DNA of 64,000 bases from Acanthamoeba sp. SK_2022b. Taxonomy: Eukaryota > Discosea > Longamoebia > Acanthamoebidae. The notes beneath the pieces are model-generated. The model worked only from the letters and a program-made list of their open reading frames with translations. It had not been told where the DNA came from and searched no databases. Positions 29,781 through 61,661 of this stretch are shown here, piece by piece (positions within the stretch are counted from its first letter, which is position 1; every line of letters begins with the position of its first letter). Position numbers and translations under genes: made by a program. The stretch covers positions 59,826-123,825 of the forward strand of contig JANDJZ010000093.1 in assembly GCA_027943245.1 (NCBI GenBank), written 5' to 3'.

Positions 29781-30329
29781 ATGCAGAAAGAAGCCAAGGA
29801 CAAATTTGGCGGCGAGGCCGATGCAATTCTCGACTATCTGTACCTGGGCAGCATGGAGGCGGGCTCAGCCCCACTGGACCAGCTGAAGGCGAGAGGCATC
29901 ACCCATGTGCTCATACCGGCCAGGATACCCGACTTTGAATACGAACAACATGGGTCACAGTTGGTTTACAAGCATCTCTCGGTCGACGACAACCCTCGAT
30001 ACCCAATAGTGCCCCTGCTTCCCGAGGCAATTGCTTTCATCGAAGAGGGCAGGAAGTCTGGAGGGCGTGTGCTGGTACATTGCCAGTACGGTATTTCGCG
30101 CAGCGCATCCTTTGTGATTGCGTACCTCATGGCGCTCAACCAGTGGGACTTTGAAGAAGCTTGGCGATTCGTGGGCAAGAGGCGACCAGCAGTGGCCTCC
30201 AACCTGATGATGTTCAAGGACCAGCTCAAGCTGTGGCACCGACTTGAGTACTGTCTGCCACCCACCCCACCCCCCGCTCTCTCGCCGCAGGAGCGGAAGT
30301 ACCTCGTACGGCACACCAATAACACATAA
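29781..30329 (+). CDS. Dual-specificity protein phosphatase
   Basis: A single-exon gene of 182 residues. The signature RVLVHCQYGISRSASFVIAY holds the HCx5RS loop with the nucleophilic Cys near 101 and the Arg near 107. The general acid is probably Asp69 or Asp70 in HLSVDDNPRYP. The early ADAILDYLYLGSMEAG is typical of small atypical DSPs. It should remove phosphate from Ser/Thr/Tyr residues of a target protein. There is no targeting, MAPK-docking or rhodanese domain, so the substrate is open. Confidence 0.93.
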   Translation: MQKEAKDKFGGEADAILDYLYLGSMEAGSAPLDQLKARGITHVLIPARIPDFEYEQHGSQLVYKHLSVDDNPRYPIVPLLPEAIAFIEEGRKSGGRVLVHCQYGISRSASFVIAYLMALNQWDFEEAWRFVGKRRPAVASNLMMFKDQLKLWHRLEYCLPPTPPPALSPQERKYLVRHTNNT

Positions 30330-30598
30330 AGTTCATCACGTGTGGCATCTTGAATAAATAAAGGGTTCTGTGGAAGAGAAAGGGGAACTGCGTTCCTCCG
30401 TGGCCAAACGGCTTCCGTCAGACATCGCTTGGACTTTCCTCCGTTCCTCATCGCCTTCCCCTTCACCTCTCTCCGTCAAGACACTACTTGAGGCGGCGAC
30501 TTGACGGAAAGCCTCTCTTGCTCTAAAACCCACTTACACCTCGAAACAGAGAGCCAACCATACCTACACTCCCTCTACACTTTTATCAAGCGTAGCAC

Positions 30599-31309
30599 AT
30601 GAAGCACCTCTTCTCCCTTGTGCTGCTGGGCTTGCTGGCCCTCGCATCGTTGGCCTCTGCAGCCGATAACGACCAACTGGAGCTGCCCCTCCTCGGCCGA
30701 GAAGACGACATCGCGCCGCAGGAGCCGCCGTCCATCGAGCCCGCCACCAACGACGCCTCGACCAACGCTGACGCGCCCAACTACGCTGACGCTCTGCTGC
30801 CTATCCGGCCCTCCAACAGCGATGGAGACGCCGCCGTCGCTACTTGTTCATCTGCCAAGTCGTGCGGTCGCTGCCTGGTACGCCGCGAGTAGTGAGCGCG
30901 AGTGGTGTAGAGGACACAACCCAACCGCTGATCATGGCTCTCCCCCTCTCACACCCATGTTCTACTTGCACAGTCGGGCAACTATGGCAAATGCGGCTGG
31001 TGCGGAGAGCACGGCGACGAGGGCCGCTGCTACGACTGCGTCATGGTCGAGGGCAAGTGCGTCGGGTCGACCCAGGAGTGCTCCCACAGCTGGAACGCGC
31101 GCGTGTGCCCGAGCAGCCACCACGCTGGCCGCGACTTTGTCCTGAGCGTGGGGGCCATCATCGGAATCACCGTGGGCGGCGCCTCGGCCTGCGCGCTCGC
31201 GCTATGCGCGTGCTGCTGCTGGATCTGCTTCCGCAGGCGAAGGCGCCACTACCACGAAGAGCTCGGCCACCACCATCACCACGACAGGCACGGCTACGTT
31301 CTCGTCTAA
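30599..31309 (+). CDS. Secreted/membrane protein with PSI-like Cys-rich domain and one TM segment
   Basis: Two exons (30599-30877 and 30974-31309) give 615 nt and 204 residues. It begins with a clear signal peptide (MKHLFSLVLLGLLALASLAS). An acidic linker leads to a cysteine-rich module, CSSAKSCGRCL joined to GNYGKCGWCGEHGDEGRC and more Cys, resembling a PSI/plexin-type knot. One transmembrane helix follows (GAIIGITVGGASACALALCA), then CCCWICFRRRRR and a short cytoplasmic tail with a His cluster ending GYVLV. It looks like a small type I surface protein. I do not recognise an orthologue. Confidence 0.75.
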
Positions 31310-31427: not shown

Positions 31428-32552
31428 TCAGATCATGCCGGCGCACGAGGCAGCGCCGCAGTGGCACTCCCTCCTCTTGCTCTTCTTGTCGCGCCTGCCG
31501 TGACGACGCGAGGGGAGATTTGGGGGGGAGAGCATGATCAGCAAGCCGTACAGGCATTTCCACTGCTTGTGCGCTGCGGACAACTGTGAAAGCAAAGCAC
31601 AAGCAATCGTCGACAATCGCGACGACGTACTCGGCGTTATCGTACTGGAAGGCATAGTCGTAGGTGATCTCGTGCCCCTTCTTGATCTTGACCGCAGCAA
31701 AGATGCCCAGGCGCATCTGCTCGCCGCACTGCCACCTTCACCCCACCCAGAGTTAGGGGCGCATGTGCGCGTGTGGAGAGACAGCAAAGTGTGTGGCGTG
31801 GGGGATGGGGTAGCATACCGTTCGACGACGCAGTTGGGCATGCAGGAGTGGTTGATGAAGCGGGCCGCGTTGCCCTTCTCCGCGGCGTCGACGTACCACC
31901 TCCTGGTCATGGCACCGGCCTTGACGCCCTCGTCCGTCCCGCCGCCGTCGCCCTCGGCCTCGTCCTCGTCGTCGCTGTCGCTGCTCTCCGCGTAGTCATC
32001 CGAGTCGGCGTAGTCGTCCTCGTCCTCCTTGTACTCGTCCTCGTCGTTGTCGCCGAGGCTCTTGTCCCTGGCGTCGGAGGCCGCCCCTCGGTCCGGGCTG
32101 CCCGTCGACTTGTCGCCATCGCCGCCGCCGCCGGTGAACAGCCCGCCCAGCTTGGGCATGGTGCAGAGCAGCTGAGCCAGCTCCTCCTCCTCGCTGCCTT
32201 CGTCGTGGTTGGCCTCCTGGGCGCCCTCCTGCTTCATATGGACCGGCGCGGCAGCCTCCCTCCCTTCCCTCTTGTCTTCTCGAAGCACCTCGTCCTTCTC
32301 CCTCTCCCTCTCTTCCTTTGGCTCGACGTGCATTGAGGCCGACTCGCCGTCGCCGCCGTCGTCGCCCTTGCCGGCCTTGGATTCGGCCTTGCCCTCCCCC
32401 AATTCCTTGGCGCCGCCCGGCGCCTTCTTCTTCTCGCGGGCGCGCTTCTTCTTCTCCCTCTCCCGCTCTCGGCGCTTGTCCTCCTCGATCTGTTGGTAGG
32501 TACGCCTGCGCCGCTTGGGAATGAAGACACACGTCGAAGCCATGCCCTGCAG

Positions 32553-32626
<74 letters not shown>

Positions 32627-33366
32627 GCGCGCGCGCCAGCCACATGAGTGAGTCGGCGTCAGGCCAATGGCCGCCTAACGGCGTGAGCGAGTGAACCTTT
32701 TCCACGCAGCGGCTGCAGGGAGTCTCGTGCGAGCAGGCCAGGTGCGACATGCGGCAGTTGCTGCAGGCCAGCTTGAGGCCCTTCCTGCTCTTCCGGTCCC
32801 GCATCTCCTCCTCGGTCTTGGGCTTGGGCAGCTTCTTCTTGACCGACCTCTGGGCCTCCTTCGGGTCCTCGGGCTCAGACGTGTTATCCCTGCCCTCCCC
32901 AAGCGATGCCCGTTTGGGACTGTGACAGCGTGTTGGCGTCTGTGTCTGTGCTGGGGGAGGCCACTCACTTCGTTGAAGACAAGGGGCGGCGTACATGGAC
33001 CTCCTGTGCATTGACACCTTCTGCGAGTAGAGTTCCATGAAGTAGCAGTTGTCTTCGTCCTCCCTCCGCTTCATTCGGCGGTTCTTCTCCGTCTCGGATA
33101 TGACCTGCCAGCACGGACGGGGGCAGCGGGACATGAAGTTAGCGATCGCTCACACGACACGGGGACCCCGCCACGAGCGGGACTGTCGTCAGTTCTCTTC
33201 GTACCTCCCCCACATACTCGATGATGAGCGAGCGCGGCTTGATGGTCGCCTCTGCAATGACGCCGTATCCCTGGATAGAGACATGTGAGTCCCCCAGGAG
33301 GTGGAAGCGAACTCTTGCTCATGGTCGATCCGAGGGAAGGGGATGGGCCTCACACACACGCGTACG

Positions 33367-33413
<47 letters not shown>

Positions 33414-34905
33414 CTTCTTCTTTGTCTTCACCAGAGCGATCGGAGCCACCTTTCCCTTGGTCAGCCGCTGGTTCTTGCACTTGGCTGGAGCACACACGCA
33501 CATGCACACAGTGTGAGCTGCCTGACAAACGCTCGGGATGGGAGGCAGAGGCTGGCGCTGTACAAGAGCACTTGCAGGGGTCCTCGGTGGCGTTGCTGTG
33601 GCAGCACTCCATCTGCGCGCCGCTGGTAACACGTGTTACACAGAAGTGGATCTCGATTGCGTGCACAGCCACCGACGGCGGCGAGACCGTGGCGAGACGA
33701 TGTAAGTGGGGCGAGTGTACCGACACGGACAGGATGAACAGTTTTCCGCGCACTCGCATCCCATGATGCGCTCGAGTTTGGGCTTCCTGCACCTGCCGGT
33801 CCCCAAGGGTAAGAACCGACGAGCTCGTCACAAGACACACACACAGAGAGAGAGAGGCTTTCGGGTTTAAATGGAGTGTAACTTGTAGACGTTGGCCTCG
33901 ATGTATTCGAGGCCTGTTATCTTGGGCAAGTCGTCGAGCGTCCACACCTTGCCGGACTTGTGTCGCTTGCTCTTGTTCTCCTTCTTCTCCTTCTCCTTTT
34001 TCTCCTTGTGCGCGTCATTGACCTCGGCCGCCGCTACTGACGTCGTGCCGCTCCTATTCCTTCTCAAGGTCTTGACCTTGGTAGCCTGTTCGCTGGCGCT
34101 GGCGTCGCTAAAGCTCCTCTTCCTCCCCCCGTTGCTACCGTTCTCGGCGTCGGGCTTCGAGTTTTCGTTCGGGCGCTGGCGGCTCCGACTGCCGCTCGAA
34201 TCGCGCCTGCGCAGTCGCAGGCCTCCGTCGTTGCCATCGGACTCGTCGTCCGAGTCGGCTTTGAAGACTCGCTTGGGCCGCTCCTTGGTCGCTCTGTCTC
34301 CCTCGCTGCGGACTTCGTAGTCGGGGTCGTCCGGGAAGAAGCAGGAGATCGCAGCTAGAGACAGGAAGCTCTCCTCCTGGGCCTCCACGGCTATGCCAAA
34401 GAACGACTGCATGGGTTCCGCGAGAAGGGTCAGCCGACCTAGTGGGCTGCTATTGCGGCCTGCTACCAAGTTGAGAGGGCCTACGCACCTGTCGATGCTG
34501 CTTGATCGATTGATCGATAAGAGCTTGCCGAGTGTTAGTGCTGGTCGTGGTGGAGACGGAAGAGCCACCCACGGCCCGACTCGAATCAGGCTTTGGCAGG
34601 TTCGGTATGCCTAGGCCTCGTTCCAGCCCGAACGGGGCCAGAAGCTGTCTCCACGCTTCCGCCTCGACGGTGGGTGCGTAAAAGCTGTGCGAGGTCCCCT
34701 CAAGCTGCCGCGGAGCGATATGTGATTGCGTAGAGGCAGTGCTATTGCTCTTTTCTTCCTTGGCAGCTGCCGTTGATTCCCTTTCTGCTTCCCGTTTGCG
34801 GCCGCCATCTAGCAGTTGAAGGAGCGAGGCCTCCGCCTCGTGGCTGGCCAAATCGCTCATCTTGGGCGTCAATTTACGAACGCGGCTGGGCCTCCGATTC
34901 TCCAT
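31428..34905 (-). CDS. AWS-SET-postSET histone lysine methyltransferase with a Zn2Cys6 cluster inserted in the SET domain
   Basis: Twelve exons (34905-34489, 34406-33883, 33786-33699, 33612-33564, 33484-33414, 33270-33205, 33104-32995, 32919-32697, 32546-31819, 31735-31627, about 31583-31552, 31494-31428) give 2484 nt and 827 residues, all phases matching. A charged N-terminal third precedes an AWS-like zinc module (MGCECAENC...YIMECC...CKCSSKCKNQRL, about 330-370). The SET domain starts GYGVIAEATIKPRSLIIEYV (from 384) and reaches NCYFMELYSQ (about 434). About 300 residues then intervene, with Cys 494, 497, 504, 510, 513 and 522 in Zn2Cys6 spacing followed by basic RRRRTY and a long acidic region. 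SET resumes WYVDAAEKGNAARFINHSCM (733-752), WQCGEQMRLGIFA, HEITYDYAFQY, and ends with postSET ECHCGAASCAGM. The AWS suggests H3K36/H3K4-type specificity. The exon 11 acceptor is ambiguous (31583 or 31562). Confidence 0.88.
32554..32636. repeat. Alternating purine-pyrimidine tract (CA)n(CG)n in a SET-gene intron
   Basis: On the plus strand about 35 CA units run directly into GCGCGCGCGCGC. In the transcript this is the 3' part of the intron between exons 8 and 9, so the GU repeat reaches almost to the acceptor GGCTGCAG. Confidence 0.95.
33366..33413. repeat. (CT)n(CA)n tract in a SET-gene intron
   Basis: About 12 CT units followed by 11 CA units lie at the donor side of the intron between exons 5 and 6. 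On the coding strand the donor itself begins GTGTGTG. Confidence 0.9.
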
Positions 34906-35274: not shown

Positions 35275-35677
35275 TTATTTCTTGAGGCGATCGGACTGCA
35301 CAAACGAGGGGAGGTAGGGGTTGAGCCACGGCTGCGCTGCGAAGAACAGGCCGCCCACCGTCAAACAGCTGCCCACGAAACCCAGCCAGCCCTTGGACGT
35401 CACTGTTGCGACCAGGTGTGGTGAAACTGAGCTTTTTGTAGCAATCAAATAAATAACGTTGGATACCTTTCTGGCCCAGGAGGTCGGTGCCGCGTCGTGC
35501 CCCAACGAGGCTGTAGAGACCGGCAATGGTCATCATACCGCCACTGGCCAGGTGGCACGGAATGCAGTCCTCTCGGTCATACCGCCGCGGTTGCTGTTGT
35601 CTGGCATCGCCACTCTTCAACGCACCATCCGGGACGGGGGTGGGCGCACTCTGTCGCTGTGCGGGGTCGCCTGACAT
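35275..35677 (-). CDS. Small two-TM protein, DMAC1/TMEM261-like (DUF4536)
   Basis: Two exons (35677-35467, 35402-35275) give 339 nt and 112 residues. A polar N-terminus with several Gln/Arg residues is followed by DCIPCHLASGGMMTIAGLYS, a CxxC motif next to a Gly-rich membrane helix as in the DUF4536 family. Exon 2 supplies a second helix, GWLGFVGSCLTVGGLFFAA. The animal member DMAC1 helps assemble the distal membrane arm of mitochondrial complex I, so a mitochondrial inner-membrane role is likely but inferred from a short motif. Confidence 0.65.
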
Positions 35678-35878
35678 GTTGCTTACGGAGCGGGCAGAAG
35701 ATCAATCAAGCGCTAGTGCTGCGCTCGAATCAAAACAATCTTTGCCTGAACTTCCGGGAAAGGAGCCGAGAAAAACAAGAGCTGCAACCTGGCGTGTGCG
35801 GTGATGTCATCACCAAAAACTTAAATGTACACACGGGTGGTTGCTCTCTTTGCTGGGGGCCACAGCAGATCTCGAGAC

Positions 35879-58700: not shown

Positions 58701-61661
58701 TTGCGGACACAGAAGCCGACCATGTACAGCATCAAGTGCGCCAAGTCGGCGCGGGTCCAATTTTTGAAGGAGAAGCTCGAGGAGTACTCGGGCCTCAGCA
58801 GGCGCAAGATCTCCATGGTCGACATCGAGGACCACTACATCCACGGGTTCATCCCCGACGCGCGCTCCGTCGCCACCTTCCGCACCAACGCCACCGCCTT
58901 CGCGTACGCGCTCCCCCCCCCCTGCTCCTCCTCCCTCCACTCGGCCGCTGCGCGTGGCTCACACTCCTCTGTGATCTCTGGGCGAATCAGCTTTGAGACG
59001 GTGGGGCCCGTGGACCCCAAGCAAGCGCTGCGAGTGCAGGTCCTCCACCGACGGGTCAACCCGGCGTTCCTCAACTCTCCCAAGGCCTCTGATCGTACGT
59101 TCTATCCGCTACTCGATTGTATTGTATTATATTGTAGTGTTGTATTTTGAACTTTAATATAATGTTTTTAACACATGTGTTAAAAACATTATATTTGTGC
59201 TCACTCTCTGTGTGGGTGCAGCGGCGCTGAACCCGCGGAAGGTGCCCCGGCAGGCGTTTGGCATGCCGTTCGTGATGCATCTGTCTGCGAAGCGTACCAC
59301 CGCGCGACAGCTCTACACTATGGTCTGGCACCGCCTCTCCCGATTCATGAAGCGCGACATCACCCGACCGTGCGGCAGTACGTTACGAAACACACACAAC
59401 ACAAATCACGCTTATGCTTACGCTTGCGTGCGCATGTACAGCCGAGGACAACAACTTTGCCGAGCCCAACGGCATTGGCAGCTCGCCGTCGTCGTCGTCC
59501 CCGATGCAGGAGCAGCACACGGGCGAGGACGGCCCGCACGCGGCGGTGGCCGCCACCAAGGACGGCGCCGCTGCGGCCAAGTCCGACGACGAGCAGGCTG
59601 GCGCCGGCGCAGAGAACGAAAGCGACGCGCTGCGACGGCACGGCGCAAAGAACGAAGACGACAGCGAGGTCGACACGGCGTCGACGTCGTCGCTGATGTC
59701 GACGCGGGAGGAGAGCGGCGCGCGGCACAAGGCCAAGGAGGTCCAGCAGGAGGGCTACACCGACACGGAGAGCGGCAGCATGAGCGGCGAGAGCTTCAGC
59801 ACCGGCGGCAAGGAGAAGGAGGAGTCCAAGGAGAGCCGCGAACGCGACAGCGTCTCCACGGCCAGCGGCGCAAAGCCGAGCGCCAAGCCGACCAGCAGCG
59901 GCGTCTCGAGCTCTGCCAGCAGCAGCAGCAGAACGGGCGCATCGTCTTCGTCGTCGAGCTCATCGTCCGCCGCCGCGCAGTCCTACGCGCCCTTCGCGTG
60001 GCCGCCGCAGTTGGACTTCACCCTCGACTGGGACAAGCTGCCCTTCCGCCTCTCCTACGTCGCCCAGAACGGCAGCTCCTGCGGCAAATGCTCCTACTCG
60101 AGGTAACCGCTTTGATCAATTAATTTTATTATTATAATAATTTATGTTTACTATAATAATTTATTTTATAACGTGAAGAAGGACAATATTAATATTTTAT
60201 AACGTTGGCAGTACGTGCACGGGGTGTCCGATCAAGCCGGACGACGAGCCGCTCAAGTTCAAGCAGGTCAACCTGCCCACCATCGCTGTCGATTGGGACC
60301 CCAAGCTCCTGCGCGAGTTCCTGTCCATCGAAAAGGCCGAGGAGATTGAGGACCATGAGAGCGTGGTCACCAACAAGAAGCAGGCCAAGAGGCGCCTGTG
60401 CCTGGACGACTGCTTCCGCCTGTTTTGCATGAACGAACAGCTGGGCGAGAACGACCAGTGGTACTGCCCCAACTGCAAGGACTTCCGCCAGGCCCGCAAG
60501 AAGTTCGAGCTCTGGCAGATGCCCAAGACGCTCGTGATCCACCTCAAGCGGTTCCAGTACACCCGCTTCTCCCGCGACAAGATCATCACCTTCTGCGACT
60601 TCCCCCTCACCGGTACTCCACACACACACCCTTTTTCCACTACACGTCATGCCATGTCATGCCACGTCACGTCACTGCTCGACCGAGGGGGCCAGGTTGT
60701 TGACCATGGTGGTGTCGTGGTGGTGGTGGTGATGGTTTGCATGCGATCAGGTCTGGACCTGTCCGAGTACGTCCAGAACTCGGCGCAGAGTCCCATCTAC
60801 GACCTCTACGCCGTAGCGAACCACCAGGGCGGCCTGGGGGGCGGCCACTACACGGCCTTTGGGCTCAACGCGCGCGACAACCGGTGGTACCACTTCAACG
60901 ACGGGTCGACGACGGCCGTGTCGGAGGAGGCCGTGCGCACGTCGGCGGCCTACGTCCTGTTCTACAAGCTGCGGGAGGACGCCGGGCCGGCCAAGAGCAG
61001 GGGCAAGGGCCAGAAGGAGAAGGGGAGCGACAAGGAGGCCAAGAACGGGGGAGACGTTAAGGTGGCGGCCGAGGTCACGTCGGGCGAGGACGAGGCGGCG
61101 ACGGGCAAGGGCAAGGGCAAGGAGGTCGTCGACGCCAAGGACGCGGACACGGACGGCATGGTCGCCATCGAGGAGCAGGGCAGCGGCGCCGCGGCGTTCG
61201 TGGGCGGCAAGGAGAAGAACGCGAGCCGGACGGTGAGCGTCGAGAGCGTGGCGGTGGTCGAGGAGCAGCTGGCGGACACGGGCGAGCGACGACAGCTGGG
61301 CAGCAGCGCCAGCAGCACGAGCAGCAGGAAGGACAGGAAGAAGGGCAAGAAGAGCGCCGCTGCGGACAACGCCGACGGGCTCGGCAGCAGCCGCAGCCGG
61401 ACGAGCACGAGCGGTCGAAGCAGGAGCGGGACGAGCAGCAACGGCGCGTCGTCGCCCTCGAGGACCGCGGGCGTGTCCTCGTCGTCTTCGTCGTCGCTCG
61501 ACAGCAACAGCAGCGCTGTGAGCAGCAAGAAGGCCAAGAAATCAAAGGAGAAGGAGAAGGAGAAGGAGAAGAAGGAGAAAAAGTCAAAGAAGGAGAAAAA
61601 GGAGAAGAAGGAGAAGAGCAAGAGCAAGGACACGACGTCCCGAAAAGAGAAGGCAGCCTAG
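55762..61661 (+). CDS. Ubiquitin-specific protease, DUSP-Ubl-USP architecture (USP4/USP15-like)
   Basis: A large gene of about 15 exons. The N-terminal DUSP domain reads [33 protein letters not shown] Ubl-like region follows ([31 protein letters not shown]). The catalytic core has the Cys box [56 protein letters not shown], the His box [12 protein letters not shown] and YHFNDGST. A long Ser/Glu-rich insert splits the catalytic domain, as in USP4/15, before [14 protein letters not shown] and the zinc-finger-like [19 protein letters not shown]. The C-terminus is a roughly 220-residue Lys/Ser-rich tail ending SRKEKAA. It should remove ubiquitin from proteins. The first intron (56163-56707, 545 nt) is unusually long and AT-rich. 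Confidence 0.94.

Follow-up and report, generated by a model that had tools for sequence, protein, structure and literature searches.

A predicted SET-domain methyltransferase gene of Acanthamoeba with a GAL4-type zinc cluster between the two parts of its SET domain

A stretch of 64,000 nucleotides from Acanthamoeba sp. SK_2022b (contig JANDJZ010000093.1), hereafter the window, was analysed; all coordinates refer to it. An Acanthamoeba profilin matches the window with 96% identity along its full 125 residues, in line with this origin. According to our reading of the sequence, positions 34905-31428 of the minus strand carry an intron-rich gene. Spliced in silico, ten exons with GT-AG joins yielded an open protein of 838 residues in which the first part of a SET domain (SET-N), a 324-residue insert, the second part (SET-C) and a post-SET segment follow one another. 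The model with the best codon and splice score contained a further intron at 32994-32890 and predicted a protein of 803 residues with an insert of 289 (residues 432-720). The features are as follows; the evidence for each is given in brackets.

34489..34905, minus strand: exon 1, start codon at 34905, without known domain (spliced translation, Pfam)
33883..34406, minus strand: exon 2, charged low-complexity stretch, then start of the Cys-rich pre-SET region (translation, Pfam)
33721..33792, minus strand: exon 3, Cys-rich AWS-like region (translation, Pfam)
33564..33622, minus strand: exon 4, further AWS-like region (spliced translation)
33414..33484, minus strand: exon 5, CKNQR, the end of the AWS-like region, up to the SET edge (translation, PDB alignment)
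33205..33270, minus strand: exon 6, SET-N (GYG...EYVGE) (translation, Pfam, PDB alignment)
32995..33104, minus strand: exon 7a, end of SET-N (NCYFMELYSQ, to 33021) and first residues of the insert (translation, codon and splice scores)
32890..32994, minus strand: inferred extra intron, gtacgc...ggcag, frame-keeping and without coding bias (codon and splice scores)
32697..32889, minus strand: exon 7b, basic lead-in and Cys 1-5 of the zinc cluster, first Cys codon at 32765 (translation, Pfam)
32547..32696, minus strand: intron with a (GT)n run, splitting the zinc cluster (translation, genome relatives, splice scores)
31819..32546, minus strand: exon 8, Cys 6, KRRRRTY, charged E/R/K stretch, acidic stretch and SET-C with RFINHSC (one open frame)
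31631..31735, minus strand: exon 9, further SET-C, YDY (translation, PDB alignment)
31428..31494, minus strand: exon 10, post-SET CxCx4C and stop codon (translation, PDB alignment)

From the splice sites, exon 3 may alternatively end at 33727, which would shorten the Cys-rich stretch by two residues. Three further genes were noted nearby. On the plus strand, a dual-specificity phosphatase gene lies at about 29782-30300 (Pfam DSPc, 100.9 bits; HCQYGISRSAS read by eye), and 30596-31309 encodes a small protein that has a signal-like start and a hydrophobic stretch and is rich in Cys in its middle; its first 92 residues had no Pfam match at E ≤ 0.01. A small minus-strand gene at 35275-35701 resembles DMAC1/Dmo2, a complex I assembly factor, but its score of 21.7 bits falls short of the cut-off (27). 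For A. castellanii, 6.2 introns per gene are given (Clarke 2013, PMC4053784).

The SET domain and the position of the insert

With the whole protein as query at E ≤ 1, SET was the sole Pfam match, with 80.8 bits distributed over two separate stretches (cut-off 22.4). Removal of the insert raised the score to 87.7 bits against the same cut-off of 22.4, in one stretch covering positions 1-104 of 105. The N-terminal 314 residues had one Pfam match, to another family and below its cut-off. SET enzymes are recognized by the catalytic motifs GxG, RFxNHSCxPN and the Y of the DY motif, together with post-SET CxCx4C. When aligned to Set2-type chains, the spliced protein kept all of these as GYG, RFINHSCMPN, YDY and CHCGAASC.

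A PDB search with the insert-free piece returned 121 matches at E ≤ 0.001, the best of which (E 4e-37) we take to be Set2. The best 35 of the 60 matches listed from these 121 were the H3K36-type enzymes Set2/SETD2, NSD and ASH1L, as judged by molecule name or, for chains with generic names, by general knowledge; this class assignment is thus a ranking of PDB matches. Upstream of SET, the spliced translation contains an AWS-like Cys-rich stretch with ten Cys and a CKNQR motif. Neither splice form gave a Pfam AWS match with the limit relaxed to E ≤ 10. Thus, of the order AWS, SET-N, insert, SET-C, post-SET given in the original prediction, the part from SET-N to post-SET was recovered and the AWS assignment was not. 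Because the AWS-like stretch lacks a Pfam match, membership of the H3K36 class is likely but unproven, and the predicted methyltransferase is best filed as nearest to that class (Set2/NSD/ASH1), not as a member of it.

The insert sits between YFMELYSQ and WYVDAAEKGN, which adjoin each other when the three best PDB chains are aligned. We take the insertion point to be the turn between two SET strands, one ending in YFMEL and the next beginning with WYVDA. Nine SET loci of the same genome were also compared with the insert-free piece. Three of them align across the insertion place (L001 on contig C339, L002 on C1074 and L021 on C846) and all three are insert-free; five align beyond this place only and one had no match. 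The PDB chains and the 3/3 genome loci agree with the earlier statement that the two SET parts are normally adjacent.

The zinc cluster and its relatives

The translated insert contains six Cys spaced C-x2-C-x6-C-x5-C-x2-C-x8-C and followed by KRRRRTY. The original prediction had described this spacing and a basic segment behind it, and both are present; relative to the 803-residue model, where the cluster Cys span residues 482 to 510, it numbers the Cys and WYVDAA 12 residues higher. Profile searches, which had been proposed as a check on the prediction, supported the zinc cluster as they had the SET domain: Pfam Zn_clus scored 30.3 bits with the insert alone and 34.1 bits with a 66-residue piece against a cut-off of 21, these pieces having been scanned apart. 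When all 838 residues of the protein were scanned at E ≤ 1, Zn_clus did not appear among the matches, an absence that we take as a putative filter effect of the highly charged surroundings.

Shuffling the 289-residue insert 200,000 times never gave the cluster spacing; this result and the genome relatives described below rule out a chance pattern of six Cys. Among PDB chains, the cluster matched Pho7, PUT3, GAL4, HAP1 and others, with a best E of 0.0003. The search gave 18 matches at E ≤ 1, of which three were histone doublets in which no single stretch passed alone.

At least six places in the genome, including the cluster of the insert, scored above the Zn_clus cut-off. The SET and Zn_clus searches of the genome were made exon by exon, and their counts are therefore lower bounds. 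Searched against the genome, the insert gave eight matches, two of which were the insert itself and the rest of which lay on C574, C800, C221 and, more weakly, at three other places. The closest relatives, on C574 and C800, are 41% identical to it over 74 residues. The zinc-cluster proteins at these two places, L028 (C574) and L029 (C800), give alignments to the insert that are identical to each other in every letter over the 74 residues, so that the assembly would contain either a duplicate or both of two haplotypes. The contigs matched by SET (17 matches) and those matched by Zn_clus (6) had only C1063, the window's own, in common. Scans of two collections that are not eukaryotic gave 0 relatives: three stretches fit a pattern in viral_contigs and four were matched in genome_contigs. 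Clarke 2013 (PMC4053784) counts 22 factors of the zinc cluster type for A. castellanii and 3 for Dictyostelium.

The cluster is followed by a basic stretch of 30 residues rich in E, R and K, with a net charge of +7, and farther on (about 32051-31943) by an acidic stretch of 50 residues with a net charge of −22. A long acidic region after the cluster had been foreseen and is thus present, behind the E/R/K stretch. No dimerisation element was identified for the cluster. The position of GAL4's main DNA-contact lysine is occupied by His.

These features bear on whether the cluster reads DNA. The fusion could be real and the cluster not a specific DNA binder, serving instead, in a loop that SET tolerates, as a spacer stabilised by zinc or as a module for protein contacts. 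In keeping with such a role, RMSHLAC in the cluster has fewer basic residues than RLKKLKC, the DNA-contacting segment of GAL4, and the acidic region lies farther downstream. However, in the PDB alignment PUT3 likewise has His at this place (RKRHIKC), as do the genome relatives (RSSHVAC and KMAHTAC), and the basic KRRRRTY directly follows the cluster. We consider a spacer or contact module unlikely, though it fares better than either of the alternatives discussed in the next section, and favour a cluster that engages DNA.

Coding continuity across the insert

As training data, the codon model had one independent ORF, 60177-61658, which alone passed the filter; the splice model had nine introns, all from the SET gene itself. 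The resulting scores rank models but are uncalibrated, and the score for full inclusion of the insert contains no splice-signal term. In the frame of exon 7, codon usage gave a coding score to ~33015, none from 33015 to 32890, and a coding score again to 32697. The bases between 33015 and 32890 are open in this frame yet without coding bias. We infer that a frame-keeping intron at 32994-32890 best explains this gap; the edge of the insert on its 5' side (33017-32890) is thus a modelled junction, derived from the scores of one ORF and nine introns. The original prediction, which set exons 7-9 within 33104-31819, probably has an intron there too. Inside the inferred intron, at 32968, we also observed a strong GTGAGT donor with no fitting in-frame acceptor in the ranges scanned; it may belong to another isoform or be a base error of the assembly.

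After the (GT)n intron, codon usage was coding-positive from 32546 to 31836, into SET-C. From 32546 into SET-C the other five frames scored lower at every step and were nearly always negative (one reached +0.8). Relatives in the genome that are not split here align across the (GT)n intron junction with no gap, and this alignment supports the junction. A single open exon, read in one frame, contains the last part of the cluster, the acidic region and SET-C, so the fusion on the SET-C side is independent of any splicing guesses. That the region between SET-N and SET-C is nothing but intron is ruled out by its in-frame codon bias and by the Zn_clus homology.

The insert might be an alternative cassette, such that a long form with the cluster would be targeted to DNA and a short form, joining SET-N directly to SET-C, would be an ordinary SET enzyme. 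In-frame donor and acceptor pairs that give a nearly uninterrupted SET do exist, an intron at 33015-31903 among them. Against this, in-frame GT/AG pairs are common in the region (26 listed) and donor 33015 is weak (−1.6). On our rough score, the best model skipping the whole insert lost 138 bits relative to full inclusion, and the six best such models lost 138 to 150 bits, nearly all of it coding score. This loss implies that the insert looks coding, but does not imply that it is never skipped. We regard a cassette as improbable.

We attach a similarly low probability to the cluster and SET-C forming a separate gene, or to the fusion being an assembly artefact, in either of which cases there would be no protein with a cluster inside SET. 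The break in coding bias at 33015-32890 falls right between SET-N and the cluster, the donor at 32968 lacks an in-frame acceptor in the scanned ranges, and the assembly comprises 1129 contigs for 44.9 Mb. However, the frame is the same on both sides of the break, which is accounted for by a well-scoring intron. SET-C, moreover, shares the exon and frame of the cluster, and without SET-N would be half a domain. Nor was a second home in the genome seen for either SET half: 8 of the 11 genome matches of the insert-free SET were its own exons and the other three were only 32-34% identical. The sequence evidence confirms, at the level of the gene model, the split SET domain with a Zn2Cys6 insert that had been predicted: Pfam finds SET in two stretches, the cluster lies in frame between the halves, and one gene with a continuous in-frame coding region is predicted to encode them.

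Known inserts in SET domains and a proposed role for the cluster

SET domains with inserts have been described. SETDB1, an H3K9 methyltransferase that is an active enzyme, carries a long insert of low complexity and largely acidic character, which separates SET-N from the strand before GN..R..NHSC and presumably lies at the same place in SET as the Acanthamoeba insert. The SETDB1 insert is not known to contain a zinc cluster, and SETDB1 has Tudor and MBD domains, whereas the Acanthamoeba protein had no Pfam match to Tudor or MBD and its SET is nearest to H3K36 enzymes. A PDB search with SETDB1 sequence letters found no SETDB1-named chain among the 60 of 100 matches listed. Enzymes of the SMYD family also have a zinc-binding domain inside SET; theirs is a MYND finger of another fold at an earlier position, and the Acanthamoeba protein had no Pfam MYND match at E ≤ 1.

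Set2/SETD2, NSD and ASH1L share with the Acanthamoeba protein the SET and post-SET regions (the best of the 60 PDB matches listed) and a Cys-rich stretch before SET. They differ from it in that the three chains with alignments shown are insert-free in that loop, and in that Pfam AWS is unmatched in the Acanthamoeba protein. With GAL4, PUT3 and Pho7 the shared feature is the six-Cys spacing, the Acanthamoeba cluster scoring above the Pfam Zn_clus cut-off. Zn2Cys6 transcription factors usually carry the cluster near one end, whereas here it is located within an enzyme domain. We know of no other Zn2Cys6 insert in a SET domain. Inserts in SET are thus not new, as SETDB1 and SMYD illustrate, but an insert of the Zn2Cys6 kind is, as far as we know.

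On balance, we favour the view that the gene encodes a SET enzyme nearest to the H3K36 class whose insert of ~290 residues bears a GAL4-type cluster, and that this enzyme is held on DNA while it methylates nearby H3. The SET fold would close across the insert loop and the zinc cluster would stand out from it. The cluster may bind DNA as a monomer, possibly at a short CGG-like half site. Once bound, it would keep the enzyme at certain promoters, or on the DNA of nucleosomes, where histone H3 nearby would be methylated. The acidic stretch might restrain the cluster or contact histones. The most likely role of the cluster, as far as sequence can indicate, is to keep the enzyme on DNA, by sequence or generally, during H3 methylation. 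That it could be a sequence-specific DNA reader that targets methylation, as originally proposed, goes beyond this and is offered as inference only. A stronger form, in which binding to a DNA site would both place the enzyme and reshape the SET loop, so that the neighbouring nucleosome is methylated at chosen genes only, seems to us doubtful.

Histone methyltransferases generally reach genes via partners or by reading other marks. If the favoured reading is correct, the Acanthamoeba protein would by itself link DNA sequence to histone mark, in a genus with an expanded zinc-cluster family. A zinc cluster inside a catalytic domain would also offer a natural model for the tolerance or use of inserts by SET domains.
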